This document shows, piece by piece, positions 15,163-50,709 of a stretch of DNA of 64,000 bases (position 1 is its first letter; each line of letters begins with the position of its first letter). The stretch is from an uncultured Microbacterium sp. (GTDB taxonomy: Bacteria; Actinomycetota; Actinomycetes; Actinomycetales; Microbacteriaceae), in the NCBI GenBank assembly GCA_913774665.1, contig CAJYHN010000007.1:49921-113920 (forward strand). Direction: 5' to 3'. Made by a program: the position numbers and the translations under genes. The notes under the pieces are model-generated. The model was not told the origin of the DNA. It did no database searches and was given only the letters and a program-made list of their open reading frames with translations.

Positions 15163-16422
15163 TCAGACGCCCTCGTGGAACCAGGCCTGCCGCACGGCCG
15201 CACGCAGGGTGCGGGTGTCGGAGCGGTCGAGCTCCCGGCGGCTGCGGTCGAACGCGGCGCGCGCGGCCTCGCGGAAGAGAGGGGCGCGGTCGGGGGCGGA
15301 TGCAGCGAGCGACGCGAGGCACTTCTGCAGGCGAACCTGTACCTCGATCACGGCGGCGCCGTCGCGCGCCAACGGTCGGAAGGCGTCGTCGACGAGATCG
15401 GCGAGGCGTGCTGCCGGGACGAACACCCGCTCGAAATCCACCGTGGAATCGAGGGGGACGGCGAAGGCCCGCGAGAAGACGCGGTGGAGGGCCGCGATCA
15501 CCTCGATCGCCGTACCGGGGTCGTTCGTCGCGGACGAAAGAGCCCGACTGCCGATCTCGGTGAGGGCGATCACTCCGAATCGCGGGTCCTGCTCGTAGGT
15601 GCGGTGGTTCTCGATCCGGAACGCCCGCCGCACCCCCGCGGCGACGTCGGCGTCGACGGGGCCGTGGACGAGGGCGAGGGGGACTCGAGCATCGGCGACT
15701 CTGCCGGGGACGGCGCGGACGTGCACATCGATCTGGTGCTGGCGTGCCAGCCGGTCGAGCCCCGCGACGTCGACATGGGTGACGTACCCGACTCCGTCCG
15801 CGTGGACAGGCGCCGCCCCCGCTGGTGGCGTCGTGGCGGGTCGCGCGCCCAGCGTCGGCCGCGCTGCGTGCCACTCCAGTGAGGTCGTGGCCGCCTTCTC
15901 GACCCGATCGATGACGTCTGCCATCCGTCCGAAGGTCGACAGGTGCGCGATCCATCGCAGGAGCGTGACGACGACGATGGCGATGATGACGAGGGTCGCC
16001 ACGAAGAGGATCGTGCGTCCCTGACTCTCGTAATACCCGGTGGAGAGGGCGACGATGCCGACGAGCGAGAACGCGAAGGCACCGACGAACGTCGATACGG
16101 CATTCTGCGAGGTCGGGTCGGCGATCAGGAGCTGCGTCGATCGCGGGGTGGCGGTCGTGGTCGCCGACGAGAAGGCCGTGACCATCGCCGTGACCGAGAA
16201 AGTGCTCACGGTGAGCATCGCCGTGGCGATGATCTGCAGCAGCTCGTCGACGGAGCCGGCCGCGAGATCGAAGCTGAGCGAGAACGGCAGCAGAGGCCCG
16301 ACGAACCGTGCGGCGAGCGCCACCACGATCGAGATCGCGGTGAAGAGCGCCGCGCGCACCCACACCTGCCGTCCGAGACGGAGGAAGAAGGATGCCAGCG
16401 GACTTCGGGTCATCGTCGCCAT
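15163..16422 (-). CDS. DUF2254 membrane protein
   Basis: A 419-residue integral membrane protein with four predicted helices in the first half (about 20-43, 60-85, 110-130, 137-160) and a soluble C-terminal half. The segment TVSTFSVTAMVTAFSSATTTATPRSTQLLIADPTSQ (about 72-107, interrupted here only for description by its helix) is the signature of DUF2254. The role of this family is unknown. ATG at 16422 gives MATMTRSPLAS; an ATG three codons in is also possible. There is a 127-base gap to the small membrane gene downstream, so joint transcription is possible but unproven. Confidence 0.85.
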   Translation of the reverse strand: MATMTRSPLASFFLRLGRQVWVRAALFTAISIVVALAARFVGPLLPFSLSFDLAAGSVDELLQIIATAMLTVSTFSVTAMVTAFSSATTTATPRSTQLLIADPTSQNAVSTFVGAFAFSLVGIVALSTGYYESQGRTILFVATLVIIAIVVVTLLRWIAHLSTFGRMADVIDRVEKAATTSLEWHAARPTLGARPATTPPAGAAPVHADGVGYVTHVDVAGLDRLARQHQIDVHVRAVPGRVADARVPLALVHGPVDADVAAGVRRAFRIENHRTYEQDPRFGVIALTEIGSRALSSATNDPGTAIEVIAALHRVFSRAFAVPLDSTVDFERVFVPAARLADLVDDAFRPLARDGAAVIEVQVRLQKCLASLAASAPDRAPLFREAARAAFDRSRRELDRSDTRTLRAAVRQAWFHEGV

Positions 16423-16650: not shown

Positions 16651-17400
16651 ATGTCTGCACACAGCCCCGCATCACGCCCGAGAGCGTCACGCCGTCTCGG
16701 CGCCGCCCTCGTGGCGGCCCTGGCCCTGTTCGGGCCCGTGCTCGCCGCCCCCGCTGCGCACGCCGCCCCTCCCGCCGCGACCCTGTCGCTGTCGATGACA
16801 CCCACGAGTGTCACCGCCGGTGACGCGCTCGTCGCCACCATCACCGGATCCGGCGTGAGCGACCTCTTCTCCTACGACCTCGAGATCACGTTCGACCCGA
16901 CCCTGCTCGCCCCCGCGACCGATGCCCCGACCGGGCCCGCCGGTGGGTTCACCTCGACGGTCACGGGCCCCGGCTCCCTCACCGTCTCGCACACGCGCCT
17001 CGGCACTTCTCCGGGCCTGAGCGGCGCAAGCGGGGTCGTCCTGGCATCCATCCCCCTTCGGTCGCTCGCGGCCGGGTCGGCGCTCGTCACGCTGTCGTCG
17101 GCGCGCCTCGTGTCGTCGACCGGTGAGGTCGTGACGGCCGCAGCGGTGGCCTCCGGAACCGTCTCCATCGCGGCGGCGCCCGTCCCCGTGCCGCAGCCGT
17201 CCACGTCGTCGCCCTCGCCCTCGCCCGCGATGTCGGCGTCCCCGTCGACGGCTCCCGCGCCCGCGGCGAAGGGCCCCGGCGGCCTGGCCACGACCGGTGT
17301 CGACGCGACGCCGTGGTGGATCGCCGGTGCTCTCGGTGTCGCCCTCATCGCCGGAGGCGCCCTGTTCGTCCTCCGCCGCCGTCAGGCGGTGCAGGAATGA
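16651..17400 (+). CDS. Cohesin-domain protein with LAxTG wall anchor
   Basis: A 249-residue secreted surface protein. A signal peptide (RR then a hydrophobic stretch, AHA cleavage after residue 38) precedes one cohesin-like beta-sandwich at about 44-180: LSLSMTPTSVTAGDALVATI, then LFSYDLEITFDPTLLAP, then GVVLASIPLRSLAAGSALVTL, matching the cohesin strand order. A Pro/Ser/Ala linker (about 181-210) leads to LATTG (212-216), a membrane helix and RRR, i.e. a class E sortase signal. The gene 41 bases downstream encodes a dockerin-bearing amidase, so this protein probably displays that enzyme on the wall. GAGGAG sits 13 bases before ATG 16651. Cohesin assignment is by motif reading and the neighbour. 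Confidence 0.8.
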   Translation: MSAHSPASRPRASRRLGAALVAALALFGPVLAAPAAHAAPPAATLSLSMTPTSVTAGDALVATITGSGVSDLFSYDLEITFDPTLLAPATDAPTGPAGGFTSTVTGPGSLTVSHTRLGTSPGLSGASGVVLASIPLRSLAAGSALVTLSSARLVSSTGEVVTAAAVASGTVSIAAAPVPVPQPSTSSPSPSPAMSASPSTAPAPAAKGPGGLATTGVDATPWWIAGALGVALIAGGALFVLRRRQAVQE

Positions 17401-17441
17401 CCGCGTCCCGTTCGTCCGTGCTCTCCCGCGAAGGATCTGTC

Positions 17442-19265
17442 ATGACCCCCCTGGCCCGTCGTGTTCTGGCCGTGTCCGCCTCGATCGGTGTCGTCGTCGC
17501 CGGGGCCGTCGTCGTCCCCACCGCGGCGCTCGCCGCTCCCGCGCCCGCACCGTCGACCGCGCCTTTCCTCGCGCCGTATTACACCGAGCTCGACGTCACC
17601 GGCGATGCCCAGGTGACGACGGCCGACCTCGAGGCCCTCGCCCCCCATCTGGGGATGACCTCGAGCGATGCCGGATGGGCGGATGCCGCGGGCTTCGACC
17701 TCGACGAGGACGGTGCCGTGACGGCATCCGATCTCGCCCTGCTGTCGGAACGCATCATCTACGACGACGGTCCCTTCCAGATCGTCGAGGCCGATGCCGT
17801 GGCGATGCAGGCGGCGATGAACGCGGGCGTGATCACCTCGGTGTCGCTCACCCAGCAGTACCTCGACCGCATCGCGGCGTACGACAAGGTCGTGCGTCCG
17901 ACCGGCGTGCGGCCGCTCAACTCGATCATCACGACGAGCAAGGTCGCGCTCACGGCCGCCGCGGAAGCAGACGCCATCCGCGCCGAGAAGGGAATGACCG
18001 GCATGCTTCTCGGCATCCCGGTGGCGTTGAAGGACAACTACAACACCGCCGACATGCCCACCACCGCCGGCTGCGGCTGCTGGAGCGGCAACCAGACCTC
18101 GAGCGACGCGACGATGGTCACGGGGCTCCGCGCCGACGGAGCCGTCATCGTGGCGAAGGCGTCGATGGACGAGTTCGCGATCAATCTGTCGTCGCAGTGG
18201 TCGGCGTTCCAGCCCGACGGAACGGCCCTGACCGTGTCGAGCCCGTACGACACGACCCAGACCTCGGGGGGATCGAGCGGCGGCACGGGAGCCGCGATCG
18301 CGGCGAACCTCGCCGGCATCGGCTTCGGCACCGACACCGGCGGGTCGATCCGCATCCCCTCGACCTACAACCAGCTGGTGGGCGTGCGCCCGACGGTCGG
18401 TCTCGCCAGTCGCGACGGCATCGTTCCCCTCGCCCTCTCGCAGGACACCGGCGGTCCGATCGCTCGTTCGGTCCAGGATGCCGCGATCGCCCTCGACGCG
18501 GTCGTCGGCGAGGACGCGGGTGATCCGATCACCGCGCGCCAGGCCGGAAAGGTCCCCGAGACGTACACGTCGTACCTCGACGGGGAGTCGCTGAAGGGCA
18601 AGAGGATCGGCTACATCGCGTCGATGCTGGGGACGAATCCCATCACCCAGCGTCTCTTCGCGCAGGCGAAGGCGGCCATGGAGGCACGGGGCGCGACGGT
18701 GGTCGCCGTCACCGCTCCCGACGGGTTCTCGGCGATCGTGGGCGAGGGCAGCGGCAGCGGCCCCGAGTTCAACCACGACCTGCAGAACTACATCACGGCG
18801 TACCTCGACCCGTCGGTGAGCGCGCGCAGTCTGCTCGCCATCTCGCAGTCGCCGAACATCGTGCCGGGGCGCGCGAGCAACCCCTACGGCCAGCGCGCCG
18901 CCGTCACCGAGTCGACCTATCAGGCCTGGGCGGGTCCGCAGGGCTCGCACACCCTGCAGCTCGCGAAGGGCAAGCAGATCATGACCGCGTTCCTGGATGA
19001 CCAGAAGCTGGATGCCGTCGTCTACCCGACCGGCAACCCCTACGGCACCATCGGTACGAACATGCGCCTCAGCCCGAACACGGGTCTGCCCGCCGTTACG
19101 GTGCCCATGGGGCAGGGGCTCTCGACCGAGGCGTCGACCGGGGGAGTGAACCTCGAGTTCCTCGGCCGCGACTTCGCCGAGGGTCCCCTCCTGGGCCTCG
19201 CCTACGGCTTCGAGCAGGCGACCCACGCCCGCACGACGCCCGCGGCGTACGGCCCGCTGGGCTGA
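17442..19265 (+). CDS. Secreted amidase-signature hydrolase with N-terminal dockerin
   Basis: A 607-residue exported enzyme. Signal peptide 1-32 (TAALAAP) is followed by a type I dockerin-like module at about 49-106: two calcium loops, DVTGDAQVTTAD (51-62) and DLDEDGAVTASD (86-97), each followed by the L..L helix. The rest is an amidase-signature fold with triad K197 (in VALKDNY), S278 (in GGSSGG) and S302 (in TDTGGSIRIPS), so it should hydrolyse an amide by a Ser-cisSer-Lys mechanism. It lies 41 bases after the cohesin gene and ends at a terminator, suggesting a two-gene operon. The substrate is unknown. The ATG at 17442 is chosen because the signal peptide starts there. Confidence 0.88.
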   Translation: MTPLARRVLAVSASIGVVVAGAVVVPTAALAAPAPAPSTAPFLAPYYTELDVTGDAQVTTADLEALAPHLGMTSSDAGWADAAGFDLDEDGAVTASDLALLSERIIYDDGPFQIVEADAVAMQAAMNAGVITSVSLTQQYLDRIAAYDKVVRPTGVRPLNSIITTSKVALTAAAEADAIRAEKGMTGMLLGIPVALKDNYNTADMPTTAGCGCWSGNQTSSDATMVTGLRADGAVIVAKASMDEFAINLSSQWSAFQPDGTALTVSSPYDTTQTSGGSSGGTGAAIAANLAGIGFGTDTGGSIRIPSTYNQLVGVRPTVGLASRDGIVPLALSQDTGGPIARSVQDAAIALDAVVGEDAGDPITARQAGKVPETYTSYLDGESLKGKRIGYIASMLGTNPITQRLFAQAKAAMEARGATVVAVTAPDGFSAIVGEGSGSGPEFNHDLQNYITAYLDPSVSARSLLAISQSPNIVPGRASNPYGQRAAVTESTYQAWAGPQGSHTLQLAKGKQIMTAFLDDQKLDAVVYPTGNPYGTIGTNMRLSPNTGLPAVTVPMGQGLSTEASTGGVNLEFLGRDFAEGPLLGLAYGFEQATHARTTPAAYGPLG

Positions 19266-49686: not shown

Positions 49687-50709
49687 TCACACACGGCGGA
49701 TCGACTCGCGGATCACCACCGGCATCTCCACGAGGTGCTGCCCCTCGGGCGGTCCGCCGGGGGCGAGCAGGAGTTCGACGGCGCGGCGACCCATGTCCTC
49801 GTGCGGCAGGCCGATCGTCGTCAGCCCCGGACGCAGGTAGGCCGCCAGTTCGTCGTTGTCGAACGACACCAGCGACACGTCCTCCGGCACGCGCAGCCCG
49901 GCGTCGCCCAGGGCTTGGAGGGCGCCGAAGGCGAGTCGGTCGTTCAGGCAGACGATCGCGCGAGGGCGCATCCCCCGAGCGAGCAGGCGCGCCGTGAACT
50001 CGTAGCCCGGAGCGGGCTCCCACAGCCAGATCGACTCCTCGTGCAGAAAGGTCGCACCCGCATCGGCCATGGCCGCGGAGATGCCGCGGACGCGCGCGGC
50101 CACGGTGGCGGAGCGGAAGAGATCGCGCTCGGCATCCGCGTCGTAACCGAGCAGCAGGATGCCGTCGCGGATCCCCGCCTCGAGGAGCAACTCGATCGCG
50201 CGTCGGCCTCCGGTCTCCTCGTCCGGGAGCACGCTGCACCGGTGCAGTTCGTTCGTGGCGTTGAGCATGACCGTGCGCAAGCCCGAGGGAAGGGTGGGGA
50301 CGAAGGTCTCGCGCGCCCGCATGGAGGCGAAGATGATGCCGTCGACCTGTCGATCGAGCAGGGCCGAGACCGCCTCGGCCTCGCGCTCGGGCTCCCCGCC
50401 GGTCTCCGCCACCAGGACGACCTGACCGGCGGCCTCCGCCGCGCCGAGCGCGCCCTTGATGAGTCCGCTCGCGAAACGCGTGGTGGCGACCAGGTCCGAC
50501 ACGAAACCGACGGTGTGCGAGGTGTCGGTGCGCAGCGCGCGGGCCGACATGTTGGGGCGGTATCCCAGCTCCGCGGCGGCCGCGTGCACTCGCTCGTGGG
50601 CGTCTTGCGAGAGGCGGGTGTCGGGGCGGCCGTTCAAGATCATCGAGGCCGCCGCGGGCGACAACCCCGCTCGCCGGGCGACGTCGGCCAGGGTGACCCT
50701 CTTGCCCAT
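49687..50709 (-). CDS. LacI-family regulator of the adjacent sugar ABC operon
   Basis: A 340-residue LacI/GalR protein. HTH: VTLADVARRAGLSPAAASMI (about 4-23), hinge YRPNMSARALRT, then a periplasmic-binding-like effector domain ending SLVSFDNDELAAYLRPGLTT. It is divergent from the SBP-permease operon; the palindrome TGCTAAA...TTTCAGCA at the operon promoter is its likely operator. ATG 50709 is the only sensible start. Confidence 0.92.
   Translation of the reverse strand: MGKRVTLADVARRAGLSPAAASMILNGRPDTRLSQDAHERVHAAAAELGYRPNMSARALRTDTSHTVGFVSDLVATTRFASGLIKGALGAAEAAGQVVLVAETGGEPEREAEAVSALLDRQVDGIIFASMRARETFVPTLPSGLRTVMLNATNELHRCSVLPDEETGGRRAIELLLEAGIRDGILLLGYDADAERDLFRSATVAARVRGISAAMADAGATFLHEESIWLWEPAPGYEFTARLLARGMRPRAIVCLNDRLAFGALQALGDAGLRVPEDVSLVSFDNDELAAYLRPGLTTIGLPHEDMGRRAVELLLAPGGPPEGQHLVEMPVVIRESIRRV

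Follow-up and report, generated by a model that had tools for sequence, protein, structure and literature searches.

Of particular interest in the stretch of DNA analysed here (the window, 64,000 nucleotides: positions 49,921 to 113,920 of the forward strand of contig CAJYHN010000007.1, assembly GCA_913774665.1, from an uncultured Microbacterium sp.) is a pair of genes, one encoding a protein with a single cohesin domain and a sortase sorting signal, the other an amidase with a dockerin at its N-terminus. The two probably form a dedicated one-to-one cohesin-dockerin display unit, a sortase-anchored receptor with its own enzyme. The pair recurs in a set of 53 contiguous loci, the window included, each with cohesin, dockerin and amidase (five loci present under two ids, L068, L070, L071, L075 and L076, were omitted as duplicates), and in all 53 the modules are adjacent and on the same strand. 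From its amidase, which is 94-97% identical to Microbacterium testaceum records, the source genome is judged to lie near that species.

The cohesin protein and its anchor

The upstream gene (16651..17400, forward strand) encodes 249 amino acids, laid out as a signal peptide (residues 1-38, judged by eye), a single cohesin, a linker rich in Pro, Ser and Ala, the motif LATTG, a hydrophobic stretch and an RRR tail. The initial annotation had placed reading frames at 16651 and 17442, and both are confirmed; it had also called the first domain of the 16651 product cohesin-like, naming in advance the lack of any cohesin profile match as a possible refutation. The domain (16798..17169, forward strand; residues 50-173) does match the Pfam family Cohesin (PF00963) over its curated cut-off, with 27.2 bits vs. 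24.1 (E 5e-6), and 31 of 33 aligned relatives match the family at E up to 0.1. In its motif TRLGTSPG, which begins at residue 115, the first G and the S are invariant across the 52 loci compared. The domain as modelled by AlphaFold (136 residues; pLDDT 86.9, pTM 0.83) points the same way: cohesin or scaffoldin entries make up 49 of the 50 fold matches listed for it in the Protein Data Bank (PDB), the highest listed TM-score, 0.79, being that of 2vo8, a non-cellulosomal cohesin of Clostridium perfringens. A profile built from the 33 relatives found 15 PDB sequences (best E 6.7e-9), all of them cohesins or scaffoldins by entry name or else known as such. A chance or compositional artefact is ruled out by the curated profiles, the fold match and the conserved partner.

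The LATTG motif (17284..17298, forward strand; residues 212-216) stands as the anchor signal first proposed for this protein, being followed by the hydrophobic stretch and the basic tail and accompanied by a match to the LPXTG_anchor model TIGR01167 (18.6 vs. a cut-off of 15.9). Scores on the same product fell below the cut-off for the LAVTG model (26; cut-off 27), the GVDTG model (20.8; 29) and Pfam Gram_pos_anchor (11.8; 20). The genome has three sortase matches, one passing the class E cut-off (169 vs. 160), a second that of class F (173.4 vs. 166) and the third under both. In actinobacteria, according to PMC5148588, class E sortases display proteins carrying LAXTG signals, and the LATTG of the cohesin protein therefore fits a class E sortase. 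Judged by sequence, the protein shows every feature expected of a class E substrate (the LAXTG signal, the hydrophobic stretch and the basic tail), and a sortase of that class is encoded in the same genome. A plasmid search with the cohesin protein gave no match at E 1e-5.

The dockerin-bearing amidase

The downstream reading frame at 17442-19265 (forward strand) specifies 607 amino acids, from which residues are numbered here. An apparent signal peptide (17442..17534; residues 1-31, judged by eye) is followed by a type I dockerin (17592..17756; residues 51-105) with calcium loops at residues 51-62 and 86-97, and by an amidase-signature catalytic domain (17772..19241; residues 111-600), all on the forward strand.

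The N-terminal dockerin with two calcium loops, starting at residues 51 and 86, was recognised correctly from the outset: Pfam Dockerin_1 (PF00404) matches residues 51-105 with 28.8 bits vs. a cut-off of 22.9, and the isolated module scores 33.7 bits with Dockerin_1 vs. 14.5 with EF-hand_7. Dockerin_1 also matches 33 of the 33 aligned relatives (E up to 0.1; best E 5.7e-9), while the best EF-hand family matches 26 of them, and more weakly (best E 1.7e-5). Searched against the PDB, the single dockerin sequence gave weak matches of two kinds, to cellulosomal dockerins and to calmodulins, with no E-value lower than 0.03. The calcium loop of a dockerin has a pattern of 12 residues, acidic at positions 1, 3 and 5 and with D at position 12. 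Across the 52 loci compared, these four positions are D/E, T, D and D in loop 1 and D, D/N, D/N and D in loop 2; the T at position 3 of loop 1, found in all 52 dockerins, departs from the acidic pattern, and both loops are conserved. Since any dockerin should have its calcium loops intact, they lend no support to release at low calcium; that the amidase would leave the surface on loss of calcium, as the initial annotation supposed, is a guess.

The partner of the dockerin is indeed an amide hydrolase rather than a cellulase, with 259 bits to Pfam Amidase (PF01425), over the curated cut-off, on the 17442 product. Its presumed Lys/cis-Ser/Ser triad (K197, S278 or S279, and S302) was assigned from motif and recall, and the candidate K, S and S columns are invariant in 32 sequences. 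The best-scoring solved relative of the catalytic domain is the peptide amidase 1m21/1m22 (E 9.7e-71), which we take to be the Stenotrophomonas maltophilia enzyme, presumably with peptide C-terminal amides as its substrate class. Unlike the window's amidase, 1m21/1m22 has no room for a dockerin, residues 111-600 of the query matching 5-490 of a chain of 503. The window's enzyme probably resembles peptide amidases and hydrolyses amides on the cell surface or close to it; any particular substrate would be guesswork.

Conservation and linkage of the pair

The 53 loci comprise 50 with two genes and the cohesin first, two with the amidase first (L015 and L147) and one fusion (L012). When their flanking proteins were compared (about 5-7 kb per side at most, so that longer flanks might merge some groups), the loosest threshold, one common flanking protein at 45% identity over 120 residues, gave 24 groups, and a stricter one 34. 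Because the loci split into 24 groups with no flanking protein in common, the pair tends to stay together while its surroundings change, and synteny alone is ruled out as the cause of the linkage.

A relative of the amidase is encoded at 16 loci of named genomes. At the close ones (L003-L016, 57-97% identity) the cohesin adjoins the amidase in 13 of 14, L010 being the exception; L017 and L018, distant amidases (28-32%) without a cohesin match, were set aside. A survey of 149 genomes of the genus found the amidase at E up to 1e-60 in 25, with 28 matches. Two of these have no dockerin region (37-40% identity), and 25 of the other 26 have an adjacent cohesin, the remaining one, in genome G137, having half a dockerin and no detectable cohesin. 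The initial annotation had held that the pair's failure to co-occur in other genomes would count against it; the pair does co-occur in them. Beyond the adjacency at the 53 loci, in 299 genomes of the family, presumably Microbacteriaceae as follows from the genus, the cohesin profile is matched in 23, the dockerin profile in 24 and both in 22 (hypergeometric 5e-30, with relatedness ignored); collapsed to genera, the cohesin is present in 15 and the dockerin in 16 of 85, with 14 in common. In one of the 22 (G302) the cohesin and the dockerin lie at contig ends, on different contigs. Discordant genomes include G204, where the dockerin is at a contig start, and G427, where the match is weak.

Across 396 genomes of the phylum, the family cohesin profile picks out nothing but this genome and a single weak case; an Aeromicrobium (L015) also carries the pair. 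The Pfam cohesin occurs in at least 3 of the 396, all of one other genus, the Pfam-based counts being lower bounds because in both the genus and the phylum surveys the cohesin of this very genome escaped the first-look filter. The matches in the three genomes of that other actinobacterial genus, at L189, L190 and L191, lie within reading frames of 2131-2209 codons. A weak cohesin match in G108 was set aside, its reading frame resembling, by eye, a foreign contig.

Within the genome itself, a search at E up to 1 gave one PF00404 match and one PF00963 match, both in this pair, and the family's own cohesin and dockerin profiles have one match each; the earlier remark that no other scaffold genes are present thus holds for the whole genome under these searches. 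A cellulosome calls for a scaffoldin of several cohesins and several dockerin-bearing glycoside hydrolases, and neither is found here. With one cohesin and one dockerin found, and an amidase as the partner, the system is not a cellulosome. Dockerin matches outside the pair, in G071, G136, G127 and G427, were set aside. The one in G071 (L077:2889-6956, forward strand) lies near the C-terminus of an apparently secreted protein with a frame of 1356 codons (24.5 bits).

The gene junction

The initial annotation left 41 bases between the two genes. In the amidase frame, an ATG at 17397 shares bases with the stop codon of the cohesin gene (ATGA), so that there is possibly no gap; the amidase gene would then be 17397..19265 (forward strand), encoding 622 amino acids. 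The alternative start, the ATG at 17442, keeps a ribosome-binding-like site of its own, AAGGA (by eye), and both starts may be used. In a scan reaching from 31 bases ahead of the cohesin stop up to the dockerin, all 50 of the cohesin-first two-gene loci have a possible amidase start overlapping the cohesin stop, and for this reason the amidase possibly begins at 17397. The overlap is of 4 bases, with ATG or GTG, in 48 of them, and of 1 base, with ATG, in the other two; at L057 and L081 the overlapping start is the sole ATG, GTG or TTG in frame in the stretch scanned. At L015, where the order is reversed, it is the amidase stop that overlaps a possible cohesin start, again as ATGA. The arrangement suggests translational coupling, which would yield equal amounts of both proteins.

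Variation in anchor and gene structure

A motif of the form L[A/S/P]xTG lies near the C-terminus of the cohesin protein in 45 of the 53 loci, and in six others a hydrophobic tail with basic residues takes its place. These six (L073, L079, L080, L081, L152 and L159) form a divergent group, with amidases about 39-46% identical to the window's and a longer cohesin protein that ends in the tail and has no sorting signal. The surface display put forward in the initial annotation thus does not account for every locus, given the six with a tail and the two with no recognisable anchor. One of these two, in Microbacterium sp. 2FI (L012, 4377-6695, forward strand), is a single frame of 773 codons in which cohesin, short linker, dockerin and amidase follow one another, both calcium loops being retained and the sorting signal absent. 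At the other, L015, the cohesin has neither sorting motif nor hydrophobic tail, and a weak Ig-like match falls under the cut-off.

Two loci are decayed, with most or all of the amidase domain left: at L010 (L010:4821-6281, forward strand) the cohesin, the dockerin and the N-terminus of the amidase are lost, and at L113 (L113:6930-8660, forward strand) the cohesin and half of the dockerin are gone. L113 is one of three dockerin-amidases without a contiguous cohesin, the others, L167 and L172, being cut by contig ends. No dockerin was found in the amidase loci L114 and L115.

Interpretation of the pair

Were the pair a dedicated display unit, the two genes would be translated together, and both products, the cohesin protein and the amidase with its dockerin, would be secreted; the class E sortase would attach the former to the cell wall through LATTG; and the calcium-loaded dockerin of the amidase would bind the single cohesin, giving one enzyme per wall-anchored receptor. 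The sequences establish the two domains, the sorting motif, the sortase gene, the conserved linkage and overlapping start, and that no further cohesin or dockerin was found; wall attachment, binding, one-to-one stoichiometry and translational coupling are what we infer. A dedicated pair is also favoured by the natural fusion at L012 and by the two loci that lost the cohesin, L010 and L113, which lost the dockerin too, whole or half.

Several observations weigh against this interpretation. The AlphaFold model of the cohesin-dockerin part of the L012 fusion has a pTM of 0.56 and no confident docking, and the ten-residue pLDDT means of its dockerin are 36-63; the alignment behind it was shallow and unpaired, with two residues of one row misplaced. 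Distance matrices from 52 loci (L013 was omitted as a fragment) correlate at r 0.78 for cohesin and amidase, 0.82 for dockerin and amidase and 0.70 for cohesin and dockerin, the last falling to 0.18 once the amidase is removed (permutation p 0.002). Since 2 of 14 control amidase blocks exceed that value (up to 0.25), specific cohesin-dockerin co-variation is not counted as evidence. The family dockerin profile has calmodulins as its top matches in the PDB (among the best 60 of 213), and of the 21 dockerins matched in the survey of the genus, 7 lie under the Pfam cut-off, one of the seven outside the pair. Two of the 53 loci, L012 and L015, keep both modules with no recognisable anchor, and the reversed-order locus L147 has a 3-base gap instead of an overlap. 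Genome G223 has a cohesin fragment with a stop and no dockerin match, and G071 a dockerin where the Pfam search gave no cohesin. Finally, the loci are of common ancestry and their counts are not independent.

The main role of the cohesin might instead be that of a subunit, structural or regulatory, serving the amidase in folding, stability, activity or substrate access, with anchoring as an optional extra. This we regard as unlikely, even though L012 and L015 have kept both modules without a sorting signal and overlapping start codons would suit an obligate heterodimer: 45 of the 53 loci retain a sorting signal and another 6 a hydrophobic tail, 51 in all, and the same genus has amidases without a dockerin (the two at 37-40% identity; L114 and L115), so that the amidase fold need not have a cohesin. 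On a related and likewise rather improbable reading, the cohesin-dockerin contact is not a link between scaffold and enzyme but the place where the two chains of one enzyme, products of overlapping genes, are permanently held together; this is suggested by the free exchange of the anchor (sortase signal, tail or none) and by the strain that fused the modules. If true, the plug and socket of the cellulosome would have been turned into a permanent subunit interface.

Cohesins elsewhere serve several dockerins, and with that precedent the cohesin could capture dockerin proteins of the same or a neighbouring cell, the amidase being only one client. Dockerins outside the pair do occur in 3 of the 149 genus genomes (G071, G136 and, under the cut-off, G127), but the search of this genome at E up to 1 found none, and across 24 groups with differing neighbourhoods the cohesin keeps to a single amidase; we consider such a wider clientele very unlikely. 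Even less weight falls on the modules no longer binding at all, the linkage being that of an operon passed down by descent and the dockerin having become a plain pair of EF-hands stabilised by calcium. The likeness of the dockerin profile to calmodulin EF-hands, co-variation no higher than in the controls and the undocked fusion model would fit that account, yet the adjacency outlasts new neighbourhoods, reversed order and fusion, the dockerin went, whole or half, with the cohesin in two of two decayed loci, and across the 33 relatives Dockerin_1 outperforms the best EF-hand family both in matches and in E-value. The dedicated display unit remains the reading that we prefer.

Surroundings of the pair

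A gene for a DUF2254 membrane protein lies upstream of the pair and divergent from it (15163-16422, reverse strand; 294.8 bits). Of 10 close named relatives, 8 have a homologue near the pair, which in L007 lies on the opposite side; the other loci scanned showed none there. A tRNA-Ser near the pair was seen, among the loci scanned, in L156-L158 and in close relatives of the window, but nowhere else. A scan for promoters and terminators found nothing and was uninformative.

Relation to known systems

The nearest parallel is with the X82 cohesins and dockerin-bearing glycoside hydrolases of C. perfringens, which are likewise non-cellulosomal and built on single cohesins, and to which 2vo8, a cohesin of a GH33 enzyme (TM 0.79), belongs. 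Strain ATCC 13124 has five one-cohesin proteins and five dockerin-bearing glycoside hydrolases, according to PMC12997984. Unlike that system, where several glycoside hydrolases take part, the pair described here has one cohesin, one dockerin and one amidase in overlapping genes. Sortase attachment of a cohesin protein, predicted here from sequence, has a counterpart in ScaE of Ruminococcus flavefaciens, a cohesin protein anchored to the wall via sortase (PMC4081043); ScaE anchors a large cellulosome through other scaffoldins, whereas no other cohesin or dockerin was found here. The cohesin model also resembles 2xdh of Archaeoglobus fulgidus (TM 0.72), labelled in the PDB as a non-cellulosomal cohesin, though an archaeal one; we know of no sortase-anchored amidase pair in that organism.

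The main text of a 2024 census of cellulosome bacteria has no word starting with "actino" or "microbacter" (PMC11557425), and PMC12915301, the one paper in which "Microbacteriaceae" and "dockerin" both appear, uses them separately. Among the matches listed for the cohesin and dockerin literature, drawn from titles and the starts of abstracts and with few subscription journals, there was no description of this pair. The cohesin-amidase pair suggests an addition to the known non-cellulosomal cohesin-dockerin systems, a relative of the cellulosome with one socket and one plug.

If the reading is true, this would be a very small natural cohesin-dockerin system, a single socket and a single plug from a pair of overlapping genes, and it would occur among actinobacteria, in which cohesins otherwise seem scarce (at least the 3 of 396 phylum genomes found with Pfam). 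Such a pair would offer a clean setting for specificity, calcium dependence and wall display with no surrounding cellulosome, and its two modules may serve as orthogonal parts for surface display.

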